Shown: one piece after another, positions 14,103 to 28,640 of the stretch | Layout of the letters: each line of letters opens with the position of its first letter | How positions within the stretch are numbered: the first letter of the stretch is position 1 | Assembly: GCF_003206715.1 (NCBI RefSeq) | Contig: NZ_PZJU01000002.1 | Span: forward strand, 1 to 64,000 | DNA: 64,000 bases | Source of the DNA: Salinicola peritrichatus | GTDB taxonomy: Bacteria > Pseudomonadota > Gammaproteobacteria > Pseudomonadales > Halomonadaceae | Direction of reading: 5' to 3' | Position numbers and translations under genes: made by a program | The notes under the pieces: generated by a model | Seen by the model: only the letters and a program-made list of their open reading frames with translations | Databases searched by the model: none | Told to the model about the DNA's origin: nothing

Positions 14103-14372
14103 TCATTGTCCTGATTGGCCATTCGGTATCAGCAGCACGCGCCCTTTCACCCGCCGCTCGAGCAAATCATTGAGCGCGATGGCGAAGTCTTCCAGCGCAT
14201 AGCGCTTGCACGGCCCCGGCACGATCTCCCCCTTGGTAGCCAGGTTAAGAATCTCCCGGAAAGCACGCTGCATGATCTGGGGACAACGTTTGCGGTAGTC
14301 GCTCACCTGTACGCCGCTGACCTCGATGTTCTTCAACATGAGGTAGTTAGCCTTGATCGTCGGAATGCGTCC
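14103..14372 (-). pseudogene. Quinone oxidoreductase (MDR family), C-terminal fragment
   Basis: The last ~89 codons read GRIPTIKANYLMLKNIEVSG, then a DYRKR..P segment, LNLATKGEIVPGPCKRYALED and RRVKGRVLLI. This is the characteristic C-terminus of NADPH:quinone reductases of the medium-chain dehydrogenase family. The N-terminal ~240 residues, with the Rossmann fold, are absent; upstream sequence is unrelated. It marks the left junction of the copper module, as if the module or a deletion cut the gene. Confidence 0.75.
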
Positions 14373-14606
14373 GGCGGACTCCTTGGACGAATTATCAAAG
14401 TTGGTTGCCTGTTTAAAGAAACGGGAAGCTGCACACGCGGAGGAGATGAGTCGTATCCATGTGCAGAATGCGTCACAGGCGGCATTGTCCAAGCTTCGAC
14501 AAAGCGAGTAGCCGATACAAAGTCAGCAGCGATGCATTGCACCTCAACCCGCTCAATCGTCCCCAGCTCTCGGAGTGGGCCATTCCCCCCCTGCACCAAG
14601 GAGAGC

Positions 14607-15020
14607 ATGACAAGCTTGGATTTATCGGGTCAACGAGAGTATCGTCATGCCATGATGCGATCGATCGTGTTGCTGTTGACGATACTGGTGTTGAATGCTG
14701 CGCCCTTCGTGAGTTCGGCCCATGCGCTGGGCATGACATCAGCCGGGGTGCGGGCGATGTCGCACATGTCCGTTTCCTGCGACCACGAATCGCAGCATGC
14801 TGCCGACACCGATCAGTGTCATTCGACGATCGCCTGCAACTCGCATGCGGCAGCCAATTGCGCCAGAGCCTGCGCAGGCATGGTCGGATTCTCACTGCCG
14901 GCGCAGGGCGTCATGGCCATCATGATAGAACGCTCCTCACCCGTTCCTTCCACCGCACTGGTGCCCGAAGATCCCATCCCTCAAGGAATCGATCGACCTC
15001 CCAAATTGCGTCTCCTCTGA
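14607..15020 (+). CDS. Small secreted Cys/His-rich protein of the copper module
   Basis: A 137-aa protein with an N-terminal hydrophobic signal (MRSIVLLLTILVLNAAPFVS at about residues 17-36) ending near SAHA. The mature part is rich in Cys and His (MSVSCDHESQHAADTDQC, CNSHAAANCARACAG), a plausible copper-binding set. ATG 14607 has AAGGAG upstream; ATG 14652 would give a shorter signal and is the alternative. It precedes the multicopper oxidase by 66 bp on the same strand, likely one operon. I do not recognise a named family; a periplasmic copper-binding or sensing role is inference. Confidence 0.65.
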   Translation: MTSLDLSGQREYRHAMMRSIVLLLTILVLNAAPFVSSAHALGMTSAGVRAMSHMSVSCDHESQHAADTDQCHSTIACNSHAAANCARACAGMVGFSLPAQGVMAIMIERSSPVPSTALVPEDPIPQGIDRPPKLRLL

Positions 15021-15086
15021 AGCTTACGCCCGGCATTCTACCGGAGCCTAACCGAGCCCAAATGGGCCCTTCTTCTGGAGACGGAC

Positions 15087-16598
15087 ATGACCCCGATTTC
15101 CCGGCGCGCTTTTCTCGCCGCCAGTTCCGCTGCGCTTGCAGTCACCGCGCTACCGCGCGTGCTCTTCGCCGACTCACCGGCAATCCCGCTCAAGGCCACC
15201 TCCCGGGTGCTCGATATCGATGGACGGGCGGCTACCGTTTACGGGTTGCAAGGTCCGTCCGGCCAAGGGTTATGGCTGAACCCGGGCGAACACTTTCGGG
15301 TGGCTCTGACCAACGACCTCGATGAATCGACGATCATTCACTGGCATGGGCAGATTCCCCCGAACGTGCAGGATGGCGTTCCCGATCTGCCCATGCCGAT
15401 GCTGAAACCAGGCGAGACCCGCGGCTATGACTATGCGCCAAACCCCGGAACTTACTGGATGCACTCTCATGTGCCCCTACAAGAGATGCATCTCCTGGCG
15501 GCCCCGCTGATCGTTCGCAGCCATGAGGATCTCGCCGCCGATCGCCAGGATGTGGCGATGTTCCTGCACGACTTCTCGTTCAAGTCTCCCGAGGAAGTGA
15601 TGATGGAGATCATGGCGGGACATGTACAAGGGGGGAATGACACTCATGGTGAGATGCATGCCGGCGGCATGTCGGGCATGGATCACTCCATGATGTCGGA
15701 TATGGATCACTCGATGATCTCGAACATGCGCCACGGCAATATGGCCATGAACGACCAGGCCGGCATGAACGGCATGGCGATGGATCTGAACGACTACGAT
15801 TGGGATGCCTACCTGGCCAACGACCGGACTCTGTCCGACCCCGACATCGTCCGGGTGGAGCGTGGCGGACGCATCCGGCTGCGGATCGTCAATGCCTCGG
15901 CGGCCACGGTATTCTGGATCGACACCGGAGAGGTGCCGGCACGCTTGGTGGCGGTGGACGGCCACGCCGTGCAGCCGCTGACCGGTCGCCGTTTCGGGGT
16001 GGCAATGGCCCAGCGTCTCGATCTGGAGATCGACCTGCCCAATGGAGAGGGCGCCTGGCCAATTCTGGCCTTGCGTGAAGGCGCGCGCGAACGTACGGGC
16101 TTGATATTGGCCACATCCGGTGCCGCGATAACGAAGGTCGATTCCCTGGGCAACGACAACGCGCCACCCTTCGATACCGATCTGGCGCAGGAAGCGCGGC
16201 TCGTCGCGCAGGACCCGCTGCCGGAGCGCGCGGTTCAGCGTCATCAGACACTGGTGCTGGGGGGCGGTATGCAACCCTATCGCTGGACGATCGACAATGC
16301 GATCTGGAGTCACCATGTGCCCGTCCCGGCCCGTTCCGGGGAGCGCGTGGAGCTGAGTTTTCGTAATGCCTCGATGATGGGCCATCCAATGCATCTGCAT
16401 GGACATACCTTCCAGGTGGTCGAGTTGAATGGCCGACGCATCGCCGGCGCGCGTCGCGATACCGTACATGTGCCGCCCATGGCGACGGTCAAGATCGCGC
16501 TCGATGCCGGCGAGGCGGCCAGATGGATGCTTCACTGTCACCATATGCCACATCTCGAGACGGGAATGATGACGGAATTCGAGGTCACTTCCGCCTAG
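15087..16598 (+). CDS. Multicopper oxidase (periplasmic, CopA/CueO type)
   Basis: A 503-aa Tat-exported enzyme (MTPISRRAFLAASSAALAVT). Copper ligands are visible: HWHGQ (~88), HSHVPLQEMHLL (~128), then near the C-terminus HPMHLHGHTF and MLHCHHMPHLETGMM, covering T1, T2 and T3 sites. Residues ~185-235 are Met/His-rich (repeats like GMDHSMMSDMDHSM), as in copper-resistance oxidases. It likely oxidises Cu(I) to less toxic Cu(II) in the periplasm. It lies between the small Cys/His protein and the Cu ATPase. Confidence 0.93.
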   Translation: MTPISRRAFLAASSAALAVTALPRVLFADSPAIPLKATSRVLDIDGRAATVYGLQGPSGQGLWLNPGEHFRVALTNDLDESTIIHWHGQIPPNVQDGVPDLPMPMLKPGETRGYDYAPNPGTYWMHSHVPLQEMHLLAAPLIVRSHEDLAADRQDVAMFLHDFSFKSPEEVMMEIMAGHVQGGNDTHGEMHAGGMSGMDHSMMSDMDHSMISNMRHGNMAMNDQAGMNGMAMDLNDYDWDAYLANDRTLSDPDIVRVERGGRIRLRIVNASAATVFWIDTGEVPARLVAVDGHAVQPLTGRRFGVAMAQRLDLEIDLPNGEGAWPILALREGARERTGLILATSGAAITKVDSLGNDNAPPFDTDLAQEARLVAQDPLPERAVQRHQTLVLGGGMQPYRWTIDNAIWSHHVPVPARSGERVELSFRNASMMGHPMHLHGHTFQVVELNGRRIAGARRDTVHVPPMATVKIALDAGEAARWMLHCHHMPHLETGMMTEFEVTSA

Positions 16599-16664: not shown

Positions 16665-18986
16665 ATGACACACCACGACCCTCACATGCACGAGACCGCC
16701 GAAGGCACCTCGACCGCAACGGACCCCGTGTGCGGGATGAACGTCACGGTCGGCCCCGATACCCGGCATGCCGAATTCCAGGGACGGACCTTTCATTTCT
16801 GCTCGGACAAATGTCGGCAGCGTTTCGATAGCGACCCTTACTTCTATGCCTCGGGACATGCGCAAGATCATGAGGCAGCGACGCCCGAGGGCACGCAGTG
16901 GACCTGCCCGATGCATCCTCAGATCGTGCGCGAAGCCCCCGGTTCATGCCCGATCTGCGGCATGGCGCTGGAGCCGGTGATTCCCACCGAAGGGGAAAAT
17001 CCCGAACTCGCCGATTTCACTCGCCGTCTATGGGTCAGCGTCGCCTGCTCGGTACCGCTGCTGATCCTGACAATGGGCGGCATGATTGGTCTGCCCTTTC
17101 GCGACTGGATCGGACATGGCCCAGCCAACTGGGTCGAATTCGTCCTGGCCAGCCCCGTCGTCCTGTGGGCCGCGTTGCCGTTCTTTCGGCGGGGTTGGGA
17201 ATCGATCGTCAATCGCTCGCCCAACATGTGGACACTGATCTCGCTGGGCGTGGGATCGGCCTATCTCTACTCGATCCTCGCCACACTGCTACCGGGCCTA
17301 TTCCCCGAGCATTACCGGACGAACGGCGCGGTCGGCACCTATTTCGAGGCCTCGGCGGTCATCGTTGCCCTGGTCTTCGTCGGCCAGGTACTGGAGCTGC
17401 GAGCACGCGAACGCACCGGCGATGCGATCCGCGCATTGCTGGATCTCGCACCGAAGACCGCCCGCCGGGTGCTGGAGGATGGCAGTGAATACGACGCACC
17501 ACTTGAGAACATCGTGGAGGGGGATCGGCTGCGCGTCCGTCCCGGCGATGCCGTGCCGGTCGATGGCGAGGTCATCGAAGGCCGCTCCTCGATCGACGAA
17601 AGCATGATCACCGGCGAGGCTGTTCCGGTCGGCAAGGGCCCCGGTGACAGCGTCACCGGCGGTACGCTCAATGCCAACGGTTCGCTGGTGATCGCCGCGC
17701 GTCGCGTGGGGGCCGACACAGTCCTGTCGCAGATCGTGGCGATGGTCGCCTCGGCGCGGCGTTCGCGCGCGCCGATCCAGGGGCTCGCGGATCGCGCTTC
17801 GGCGATCTTCGTTCCCACGGTGGTAGGTGTCGCCCTCCTGGCCTTTATCGGCTGGCTGGTCTGGGGGCCTCAACCCTCGCTGATCTCGGCCATCGCCGCC
17901 GCCGTCTCGGTGCTGATCATCGCCTGCCCTTGTGCGCTGGGGCTGGCGACGCCGATCTCGATCACCACCGCCGCCGGGCGCGGCGCGCAGGCCGGCGTTC
18001 TGATCCGCGATGCAGAGGCCCTGGAACGAATGGCGGTGGTCGATGTCCTGGTCGTCGACAAGACCGGCACCTTGACCGAGGGCAAACCGAAGCTGACCGA
18101 TGTCAGGGCACTCGCGGACGTATCGGAAAGCGAGCTTTTATCCTTCGCCGCCGCCCTGGAGACCGGCTCCGAGCATCCCCTGGCCGAAGCGATCATCGAC
18201 GGCGCGCGCGAGCGCGGTGCACCACGCCGCTCGGCCGAGACGTTCGAGGCCGTCACCGGCAAAGGGGTCAAGGGCCGGATTCAAGGGCAGGACGTCGCAC
18301 TCGGCAATGCCACGATGCTGAACGACGTCGGAGCGGAAGCCGAATCGGCCGCCGAGTCGCTGCGCGCCGAGGGCAAGACGGCGATGTTCATCGCCCTCGA
18401 CGGCAAGGTGGCGGGTATCGTCGCGGTGGCCGACCCGGTCAAGGAGACTACCGCCGAGGCGATCTCCGCCCTGCACGCGCTCGGCCTTCGCATCATCATG
18501 GCGACGGGGGACAGCCAGCGCACCGCCGAGGCGGTCGCCGCGACGTTGAATATCGACGACGTCCGGGCGGGCGTGCTGCCCGAGGACAAGAAGGCACTCG
18601 TCGAGGAACTGAAGGCACGGAAATCCGTGGTCGCGATGGCCGGTGACGGCGTGAACGATGCGCCCGCGCTGGCCGCGGCGGACATCGGCATCGCCATGGG
18701 CACCGGCGCCGACGTGGCCATGGAGAGCGCCGGTCTGACCCTGTTGGGCGGCGACCTGAACGGGGTCGTGCGTGCCCGCCGCCTGGCCGAGGCCACGCTG
18801 CGCAACATCAAGCAGAACCTGTTCTTCGCCTTCGCCTACAACTCGGCGGGAATCCCCATCGCGGCCGGCGTGCTGTATCCGCTGACCGGCACCCTGCTCT
18901 CACCGATGATCGCGGCGGCGGCGATGAGTCTCTCTTCGGTCTCGGTCATTGCCAACGCGCTGCGTCTGCGCCGCGCGAAGCTTTGA
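16665..18986 (+). CDS. Copper-exporting P1B-type ATPase with YHS and metal-binding N-domains
   Basis: A 773-aa inner-membrane pump. N-terminal domains: YHS/TRASH (DPVCGMNVTVGPDTRHAEF, about 22-65) and a heavy-metal-binding zinc-ribbon-like domain (WTCPMHPQIVREAPGSCPIC, about 78-100), instead of classical CxxC HMA domains. Core motifs: CPC in the membrane (ACPCALGLATP), phosphorylation DKTGTLTEG, SEHPLAEAI, and GDGVNDAPALAAADIG. It exports Cu(I) (or Ag(I)) to the periplasm, where the oxidase acts. It is the third gene of the copper module. A putative hairpin follows at 19062-19095. Confidence 0.94.
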   Translation: MTHHDPHMHETAEGTSTATDPVCGMNVTVGPDTRHAEFQGRTFHFCSDKCRQRFDSDPYFYASGHAQDHEAATPEGTQWTCPMHPQIVREAPGSCPICGMALEPVIPTEGENPELADFTRRLWVSVACSVPLLILTMGGMIGLPFRDWIGHGPANWVEFVLASPVVLWAALPFFRRGWESIVNRSPNMWTLISLGVGSAYLYSILATLLPGLFPEHYRTNGAVGTYFEASAVIVALVFVGQVLELRARERTGDAIRALLDLAPKTARRVLEDGSEYDAPLENIVEGDRLRVRPGDAVPVDGEVIEGRSSIDESMITGEAVPVGKGPGDSVTGGTLNANGSLVIAARRVGADTVLSQIVAMVASARRSRAPIQGLADRASAIFVPTVVGVALLAFIGWLVWGPQPSLISAIAAAVSVLIIACPCALGLATPISITTAAGRGAQAGVLIRDAEALERMAVVDVLVVDKTGTLTEGKPKLTDVRALADVSESELLSFAAALETGSEHPLAEAIIDGARERGAPRRSAETFEAVTGKGVKGRIQGQDVALGNATMLNDVGAEAESAAESLRAEGKTAMFIALDGKVAGIVAVADPVKETTAEAISALHALGLRIIMATGDSQRTAEAVAATLNIDDVRAGVLPEDKKALVEELKARKSVVAMAGDGVNDAPALAAADIGIAMGTGADVAMESAGLTLLGGDLNGVVRARRLAEATLRNIKQNLFFAFAYNSAGIPIAAGVLYPLTGTLLSPMIAAAAMSLSSVSVIANALRLRRAKL

Positions 18987-27301: not shown

Positions 27302-27551
27302 TCGTTCAAACGAATTGGATCACCATGACGCACGGGCCAATATCAAGAGCGTGATGCTCTGTTCTTCGACCCACTCGCCGGTAGCGCTGGACATCAAGAC
27401 CGAAGCCACGGCGATCTCCGATGCCGAGCATCAGATGGCGGATGAAAAACTCATCGCCGCCGAAAAGATCGTCATGGAAACGGCCCAGTGGCTGAGATCG
27501 AAACCATTCGGATGAATAAAACCATTTGGACAGATGAAGCGACCGGCAGGA
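27302..27551. other. Gap with an unidentified short open frame
   Basis: On the plus strand about 27351-27515 reads VMLCSSTHSPVALDIKTEAT and ends QWLRSKPFG. It looks like the C-terminus of some protein without its beginning. I do not recognise the family; treat as a possible remnant. Confidence 0.3.
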
Positions 27552-28640
27552 TCAGCCCGGTACTTCGGCGGACTGCTCGATCGCGTCCACCCACTCGTGC
27601 AGGGCAACCGCATCCTGGAAGGTCGGCGCCGTGCGCGTACCGTGGCGGATGTCGTCGGCCAGGCGCGCATAAATGCGCGCCACGTTGCGCGCCGCGGCTT
27701 GCTTCGGCCAGTTCGCATAGGCCGACTCGGGCGGCATCAGCGGCGCCAGTGTCTTGTCCTCGCCGCGCGCGCCACGCACGGTCAATGGCACCATTTGCGC
27801 ATGACCCAGCCCCGCCGTCACCTGGATGTCGCCCTCGGTGCCGTTGATTTCCCAGAGCAGGTTGGTGCCGCGGCAGACACCGCCGCGATAGTGGATGGAA
27901 ACCGCGGCGCCGCTCGCCAGGGTGCCATGCGCCATGATCTGGTCGGGTGCGGTTTTGGGGCGCGTCTCGCCGGTGTCGGTGACCCGGACGGTATCGAAAC
28001 GGCTGGCGAAGCGGGCGGAGAGCGCCCCGAAATCACCCAGCACGTCACGCATGGCCGCCAACGTATGCGCCAGCGGAATCGATTGCATGGTCGCGCCGTT
28101 TTTCTTGTCGAACAGGTAGTAATAGTCGGCAGTGGTCTCGCCGGCCCAGTTGCCCCCCGATCCGACCAACGTCGTCGACAGAACCTCTCCCACGTAGCCA
28201 TCGGCGATCAGCTTACGCACATGCTCGACCTCGAGCGCCGTACGCGCCTGGGTGCCGGCGACCGCGACCACGCCCCTTTCCTGCGCGAGCTGGGCAAGCT
28301 TTCGAGCCTCGACCAGTCCATTGCCGAGCGGCCATTCACAGTAGACGTGCTTACCGGCTTCCAGCGCAGCCGTCACCAGTTCCAGATGATGAGGGACCTT
28401 GACGGTCACGACGACGAGATCGACCTCCGGTGAGGCGACCAGATCCTTGGCACTGGCAAAGGCATGCGGCAGGCCAAGCGCCTCGGCGGTATGGCGACCG
28501 CTCTCCGGCGTGCTGTTGGCGACGCCGACCACGGTGAAGGTGTCGGACAGCGCCCTGAGCGCGGGAATATGCGCGGTCGCCGCCCAATGGCTGTCCGGAT
28601 TGAGACCAATGAAGCCAACGCGGATGGGGTGATCAGTCAT
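27552..28640 (-). CDS. Gfo/Idh/MocA-family oxidoreductase
   Basis: A 362-aa NAD(P)-dependent dehydrogenase. N-terminal Rossmann fold: IRVGFIGLNPDSHWAATAHI (~6-25) and VDLVVVTVKVPHHLELV; the EWPLG motif (~102) is the family's EKP-like position, here Glu-Trp-Pro. The C-terminal domain forms the substrate sheet. The pattern is close to yeast Gal80/galactose-1-dehydrogenase-like members. Substrate unknown, probably a sugar or polyol. Last gene of the minus-strand set cupin-MFS-dehydrogenase-dehydrogenase. ATG 28640 has AAGGAGA upstream. Confidence 0.85.
   Translation of the reverse strand: MTDHPIRVGFIGLNPDSHWAATAHIPALRALSDTFTVVGVANSTPESGRHTAEALGLPHAFASAKDLVASPEVDLVVVTVKVPHHLELVTAALEAGKHVYCEWPLGNGLVEARKLAQLAQERGVVAVAGTQARTALEVEHVRKLIADGYVGEVLSTTLVGSGGNWAGETTADYYYLFDKKNGATMQSIPLAHTLAAMRDVLGDFGALSARFASRFDTVRVTDTGETRPKTAPDQIMAHGTLASGAAVSIHYRGGVCRGTNLLWEINGTEGDIQVTAGLGHAQMVPLTVRGARGEDKTLAPLMPPESAYANWPKQAAARNVARIYARLADDIRHGTRTAPTFQDAVALHEWVDAIEQSAEVPG

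Follow-up and report, generated by a model that had tools for sequence, protein, structure and literature searches.

In this work, we focused on a small open reading frame (ORF) that heads a copper module of Salinicola peritrichatus, within a stretch of 64,000 nucleotides (hereafter the window). This ORF very probably encodes a CutF-like leader peptide which, by analogy with CutF, would control translation of the downstream multicopper oxidase (MCO) in cis, and it is most likely a copper-sensing switch acting in cis rather than a copper carrier. Leaders of this kind are already known (CutF); we add here the exact 41-residue spacing between a cysteine motif and a proline pair, and an anti-Shine-Dalgarno (anti-SD) sequence lying inside the last codons. 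The coding sequence, the CXXXC and PP motifs, their spacing, the predicted helix and the covariation were computed here, and the switch mechanism is inferred from the analogy with CutF.

Sequence sets and searches

Related loci were the best 80 of 377 MCO relatives together with six plasmid loci (86 in total), and the window was added to them when the 41-residue spacing was counted. This spacing played no part in the selection of leader ORFs. As many of the sequences are near-identical, the family counts given below are not independent. A smaller protein set (i.e. without L017, L022, L026, L028 and L052) was used for comparisons of spacers. The 45-sequence protein alignment (A3) was made without six further near-duplicates, alignment A4 without plasmid-record rows and further near-duplicates, and the RNA alignment (A2) without L026 and the window. 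An RNA model built from the unguided RNAalifold structure (R1) was set aside. Codon use for L065 was estimated on 57 codons only. Weak matches to the leader were screened over about 3 kb for ORFs of 60 aa or more that have PP in their last 15 residues and CXXXC 38-48 residues earlier.

Leader gene and copper module

The preliminary description had presented a secreted protein with clusters of Cys, His and Met at the head of a copper module; an exported-type protein containing Cys, His and Met was borne out in this position, the MCO gene and a copper-type ATPase gene following 3' (Table 1).

Table 1. Features of the leader region and of the copper module in the window
Feature	Position	Strand	Basis
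AAGGAG, candidate ribosome-binding site of the leader ORF	14598..14603	+	read off the sequence
cutF-like leader ORF, 137 aa	14607..15020	+	ATG 14607 to TGA 15020, plus relatives
Sec-like N-terminus, residues 16-40, AHA at end	14652..14726	+	hydrophobic stretch, modelled helix
Four-cysteine stretch C71-x5-C77-x7-C85-x3-C89 (CXXXC = C85-C89)	14817..14873	+	sequence and alignment
Asp-Arg-Pro-Pro, residues 129-132, presumed pause motif	14991..15002	+	conservation in 45 aligned sequences
Anti-SD CGTCTCC in R135, L136 and first base of L137	15009..15015	+	predicted pairing, family covariation
Predicted intergenic hairpin, counterpart of family helix 2	15024..15051	+	folding, with low certainty in the window
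Predicted hairpin GCCC-AAAT-GGGC, counterpart of helix 3	15056..15067	+	folding; family helix
Shine-Dalgarno (SD) region of the MCO, GGAGACG	15077..15083	+	sequence, predicted pairing
MCO, twin-arginine start MTPISRRAFLAAS, Met/His-rich insert	15087..16598	+	domain and family profiles
Copper-type P1B ATPase, N-terminal YHS + HMBD domains	16665..18986	+	Pfam, NCBIfam

Three bases separate the candidate ribosome-binding site from the ATG of the leader. The frame is open upstream to 14115 and Met16 (14652) is better conserved than Met1 among aligned relatives, so that the start may lie at 14607, 14652 or 14655; counted from Met16, the leader measures 122 aa. A hydrophobic stretch at residues 20-31 is followed by AHA at 38-40, and the predicted structure contains an N-terminal helix of high confidence. 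Outside this signal region the model is poor (mean pLDDT 66.8): of the ten blocks beyond residue 40, nine have pLDDT values of 52-62 and one of 73. Residues 41-137 (97 residues) comprise five Cys, five His and six Met. The central CXXXC reads C85-ARA-C89 and the PP pair is P131-P132 of 137, i.e. inside the last 15 residues of a protein that ends in IDRPPKLRLL. Among the 45 aligned sequences, P131 and P132 are invariant and R130 is at least 90 % conserved.

The MCO gene lies on the same strand, 66 nt after the leader. Pfam recognised three Cu-oxidase domains in its product (PF07731 at E 1.7e-29, PF00394 at E 3.5e-13), and since its scores stayed below the NCBIfam cut-offs for copper_res_A (197 of 479 bits) and CueO (76 of 525 bits), we name it only as an MCO. 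The ATPase exceeded the NCBIfam copper-ATPase cut-off (589 of 397 bits) and also, with a lower score, that of the cadmium family (388 of 313.5). A scan for promoters and terminators over 14380-15100 found none. The left edge of the module is marked by no sharp break in base composition, and G+C rises to 0.685 across the ATPase. Upstream of the module and adjoining it, a fragment on the reverse strand (14103-14492) shows similarity to the terminal part of a zinc-type dehydrogenase (ADH_zinc_N_2; E 0.001, short of the cut-off) and is perhaps a decayed gene at an insertion edge.

Family assignment

According to the preliminary description the protein was undescribed and could be placed in no family. 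As regards profile libraries, the latter point stood: the only Pfam row had an E-value of 0.19, below its cut-off, and NCBIfam, whose library we take to include a CopL model, returned no family at E up to 10. PF11162 (DUF2946) was absent from the Pfam rows at E up to 10, and gave a single row (E 0.21) against seven aligned leader proteins. The point on novelty did not hold, since the leader fits the rules published for CutF-like proteins (PMC8456105), as far as these were tested. The rule set asks for fewer than 150-170 aa, a Sec signal, a central CXXXC, PP in the last 15 residues, an MCO with PF00394 or PF07731 at a small distance on the same strand, an RNA structure over the MCO SD and copper-dependent control of the MCO in cis (PMC8456105/PMC9973294); the leader has 137 aa (122 from Met16), CXXXC, PP and an adjacent MCO on the same strand. 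The class so defined is large, with 5,334 published entries (PMC9973294).

Direct searches with the leader protein gave no match in plasmid records and no relative in the genome_contigs set. Among 275 genomes of the family, nine matched at E up to 0.01, i.e. the own genome and eight at 0.002-0.01. Profile A1 matched 14 of 369 class genomes at E up to 0.01, the own genome and 13 others, the latter at 14 places (E 9.6e-6 to 0.0075) of which nine contain internal stops. All 22 weak places (eight from family genomes, 14 from class genomes) were rejected as leaders, the CXXXC/PP-type ORF being missing throughout.

Leaders upstream of related oxidases and their fixed spacing

Constant adjacency to copA-type genes had been suggested as a check on the protein. 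Viewed from the MCO side, a leader-type ORF lies upstream of the MCO in 75 of the 86 loci (best 80 of 377 plus six plasmid loci) and is missing under the stated filter from the other 11: L023, L024, L025, L029 and L037 have no leader ORF, in L055 the contig breaks off in the leader region, and L072, L073, L076, L077 and L083 have in common a form whose tail continues beyond the usual stop, for which reason the filter rejects it. L037 nevertheless retains the hairpin and the SD (GGGACTGCGGTCCCGAGGAGACG) immediately 5' of its MCO (at 1274), a pattern that would fit loss or replacement of the leader. CXXXC is present in 74 of the 75 ORFs, the exception being L021. With the window included, this set comprises 76 leader loci, 75 with CXXXC, and 56 distinct C-termini. 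RPP occurs in the last 15 residues of 51 of these 56 and RLL ends 43 of them, while the pattern C-x4-6-C-x6-9-C-x3-C is found in 44 of the 56 distinct leaders and the exact four-cysteine spacing of the window in 32.

On the six plasmids the leaders are annotated 'hypothetical protein', measure 109-133 aa and lie 71-83 nt upstream of the MCO. They are 23-33 % identical to the window's leader, with CXXXC and the PP tail in common; two of them end in RPPKLRLL, three in RPPxxRLL or RPPELRLV and one in QPPKFV.

The last Cys of CXXXC precedes the last PP by 41 residues in 51 of the 55 distinct CXXXC-bearing C-termini, that of the window included; the four exceptions have 37 (two), 42 and 44 residues. 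The smaller protein set gives 49 of 51, and as it lacks L022, L026 and L028, which break the spacing, 51 of 55 is the count to use. In the smaller set, the spacer of the window is 10-22 % identical to those of other leaders, 483 of 1176 spacer pairs are less than 30 % identical, and the stretch ahead of CXXXC varies from about 60 to 87 residues (start codons chosen by rule). The two strands of the 80 loci (best of 377) contain 3265 ORFs of 60 aa or more. PP in the last 15 residues together with CXXXC exactly 41 residues earlier is found in 64 of them, each situated 40-145 nt upstream of the MCO match; the combination of leader features upstream of MCOs exceeds chance. A second ORF of the window (27488-27847, + strand) also has a Cys motif 41 residues ahead of PP; its end is rich in Arg and Ala, no link to an MCO was seen, and its spacing is probably due to chance.

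The published positions of Rhodobacter capsulatus CutF, i.e. C69-C73, P109EPEGPPPRL118 and PP 115-116 (PMC8456105), yield a spacing of 41 as well. According to the authors of the CutF work, a short spacing ('45 amino acids') could be of critical importance, and the copper site would thereby come to lie in the vestibule of SecY on the periplasmic side (PMC9973294). In CruR, copper regulation survives the addition or removal of one or two spacer residues and is largely lost with five more (PMC9426467). In the parts of the CutF literature available to us, we found no statement of an exact family-wide spacing.

Anti-Shine-Dalgarno sequence in the last leader codons

The leader of the window closes with CGT-CTC-CTC-TGA, complementary to the MCO SD, and most leaders end in the same CGT CTC CTC TGA, complementary to GAGGAGACG of the MCO. 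Pairing of 15009-15015 with 15077-15083 was predicted with probabilities of 0.81-1.00. At least five pairs between the last codons and the SD region were expected in 48 of 53 unique sequences; L014 (1.2), L027 (2.7), L072 (3.8), L045 (4.5) and L091 (just under 5.0) remained lower. The codons CGT CTC CTC were used by 32 of the 39 unique sequences ending in RLL*, against an expectation of 0.26 if codons were used as in the MCO that follows. In 41 of 50 unique sequences, synonymous versions that pair with the SD equally well or better had a weighted share of at most 5 %; the window is outside these 41, its own control being weak (weighted P 0.08, unweighted 0.026).

A structure specified by us was then applied to 51 sequences without the window. 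Its cells paired in 89.1 % of cases, against 39-53 % when it was slid by 1-3 columns. Changes on both sides were seen at 15 of its 24 pairs, above all 500 shuffles and the six slid versions, and at four of the eight pairs of the anti-SD helix. Because the structure was named after the sequences had been viewed, and because the sequences are related, this covariation is support and not a probability. L068 is an example: its tail is LHLL, Arg giving way to His where the SD goes from GAGACG to GAGATG, and the substitution creating this His codon is matched by that in the SD. The complementarity of the last codons to the MCO SD and the compensatory changes in the family suggest that the conserved tail RLL* partly reflects an RNA constraint.

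An RNA model built without the window matched it once, at 14994-15089, and had no other match at E up to 10 anywhere in the genome (E 5.8e-5; 150 of 2747 first-look candidates scored). A sequence-only model matches the window too (E 3.6e-6), so that the RNA-model match alone is no proof of structure. RNAalifold on the raw alignment yielded one 4-pair hairpin only, the anti-SD helix being absent; the window fold was no more stable than shuffles (z -0.71), and the three Rfam matches were all below gathering scores and of unrelated types. On the pairing probabilities, the family covariation and the single match of the RNA model in the genome, we regard a structure shielding the MCO SD as predicted for the window, the prediction being weak if the window is taken alone. 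The CutF literature, in the parts available to us, contained no statement that we could find of an anti-SD in the last leader codons.

Distribution and probable transfer of the module

Among the 275 family genomes, the MCO was found at E up to 1e-60 in the own genome only. Relatives of the MCO occurred in 97 plasmid records, mostly alphaproteobacterial among the 60 listed, and 77 of the best 80 of 377 relatives are, judging by genus, presumably alphaproteobacterial (exceptions L023, L025 and L065). Since only the own genome was matched convincingly among the 369 class genomes, we infer that the host acquired the module. Across 398 genomes of the phylum the RNA model matched the own genome and G949, which has a leader of the same type and an MCO; the stricter filters of that search make absence from the others weak evidence. 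Six loci from different alphaproteobacterial genera (L071, L075, L078, L079, L085 and L086) have in common an identical sequence of 2007 nt that begins with the leader and ends with the MCO, which points to recent transfer of the module. L074, L090 and L096 have the last 102 nt before the MCO in common with these six, not the whole. ATPases 62 % identical to that of the window are encoded elsewhere in the own genome (G000:C94:3835-5985) and in a congener (G185:C79:56659-58809), and the ATPase is thus less confined than the leader and the MCO, which among the 275 family genomes were found in the own genome only.

The host also carries a DUF2946/CruR-like ORF (PF11162, 61.4 bits) at L115:1480-1893 (-), i.e. 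G000:C41:29073-29426. It has CGYC, 45 residues (counted by eye) and RAPP near its C-terminus, like CruR of Bordetella pertussis, and is followed 3' by a gene for a PepSY-type membrane protein (named by eye).

Proposed mechanism and alternatives

By analogy with CutF, the leader chain would be exported co-translationally via Sec. Without copper, the chain would be pulled through, the ribosome would finish, the helix 15009-15015/15077-15083 would re-form and the MCO would stay untranslated. With copper, metal bound to the cysteines would lengthen a pause at Arg-Pro-Pro; the paused ribosome would cover or melt the anti-SD, and a second ribosome could start on the MCO. The finished leader peptide would be dispensable. 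The footprint of a ribosome extends about 15 bases, and a pause with the first Pro in the P site could free the SD, as the footprint would then reach the start of the anti-SD (14997 + 15); alternatively, the helicase action of the ribosome may do so. Exposure of the SD is not a given, since in a folding test with blocked bases the freed SD formed a new helix with codons near the start of the MCO (-8.9 kcal/mol, a stronger pairing than in any other of the 53 sequences). As to the pause, fusions of the CutF C-terminus did not stall and stalling by CutF was only inferred (PMC9973294); a remark in PMC10987492 likewise treats it as unproven.

The preliminary description saw in the leader a secreted copper-binding protein, and regulation of the MCO in cis during translation is the likelier job. 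If the product were instead a stable Cu(I)-binding protein, secreted or residing in the periplasm, it could buffer copper or load the MCO with it; this would accord with the exported-type N-terminus, the five Cys, five His and six Met in 97 residues and the copper neighbours, and a productive CutF-CutO interaction was left open by the CutF authors in 2021 (PMC8456105). We consider such a protein improbable, given a predicted model that is poor outside the signal region (mean pLDDT 66.8), and a 41-residue spacing and synonymous-site constraint at the end of the gene that would be unexpected of a chaperone; moreover, R. capsulatus CutF fails to complement in trans and is rapidly degraded (PMC9973294). 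The cysteine motif, fixed spacing and C-terminal PP are equally the architecture of CruR (PMC9426467), and a CruR-like ORF exists elsewhere in the host genome, so that copper might instead relieve the pause, uncovering RNA for Rho termination before the MCO and turning the downstream gene off. This appears slightly less probable still: there would be little point in copper shutting off a likely detoxifying MCO, the gap of 66 nt, with a predicted helix that sequesters the SD, compares with one of 162 nt in CruR (PMC9973294), and PF11162 does not match the leader protein. The anti-SD, placed as it is in the last codons, would be opened by any ribosome at the stop, and plain translational coupling, in which the MCO start is opened whenever the leader is translated and copper acts on transcription alone, could operate on that basis; alone, it leaves the conserved CXXXC, the invariant PP and the 41-residue spacing unexplained, and we rate it the least probable of these explanations.

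Returning to the CutF-like leader, a more far-reaching proposal, to which we give even chances, is that protein and RNA are overwritten in one copper gauge. The 41 residues would act as a ruler that sets the copper site at one point between the tunnel exit and the Sec channel while PP is in the ribosome, the codons after PP would be the anti-SD, and RLL* would be dictated by the RNA; the whole would be a regulator-free cis cassette that moved between alphaproteobacteria and, with its oxidase, into an unrelated host. Since the oxidase seems to move together with its leader and RNA switch, the gene would bring its copper control along wherever it goes.

The guess of a new copper-binding protein is thereby turned into a testable regulatory mechanism. 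Research on CutF gains two handles, a spacing that can be adjusted by residues and an anti-SD that can be changed synonymously, and a caution, in that C-terminal conservation in such leaders may mirror a constraint on the RNA and not on the peptide.

Comparison with known systems

The closest likeness is to CutF of R. capsulatus (cutFOG), compared here through published descriptions. Both are small exported-type proteins 5' of a Tat-type MCO, with CXXXC, a C-terminal PP, a 41-residue spacing (by the published positions for CutF) and a structure, predicted in the case of the window, shielding the SD of the MCO. The window's leader differs by its four-cysteine pattern and its tail (RPPKLRLL vs GPPPRL), and the MCO is followed by a copper ATPase gene in the window and by cutG in R. 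capsulatus. CutF is exported co-translationally, its translation is required in cis, its function requires CXXXC and the proline tail, and it is needed only if the SD-shielding stem-loop is present (PMC9973294). The model has been restated in a review (PMC10502375), and no further paper on the mechanism was noticed among the literature matches listed. CopL of the Xanthomonas/Stenotrophomonas copLAB operons, proposed to be isofunctional with CutF (PMC9973294), is by description similar in preceding a copper oxidase gene and in lacking action in trans.

CruR (Bp2923, DUF2946) of B. pertussis resembles the window's leader as a leader ORF with a Cys motif, a C-terminal PP and a conserved spacing, which in CruR is 45 residues from CXXC to RAPP (PMC9426467). 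CruR has CXXC and RAPP where the window has CXXXC and DRPP, and PF11162 finds no match here. CruR works through Rho, copper turning expression off (PMC9426467), and its arrest has been demonstrated in vitro (PMC12992588). In arrest peptides of the SecM/RAPP type, a C-terminal Arg/Pro motif likewise pauses the ribosome (PMC10987492, PMC12992588), and SecM pausing opens an RNA structure that blocks an SD, as is presumed for the window's leader. SecM and its kin sense export, and their motif is RAPP/RAGP-like, whereas the presumed pause motif is DRPP in the window and mostly ERPP in its relatives.
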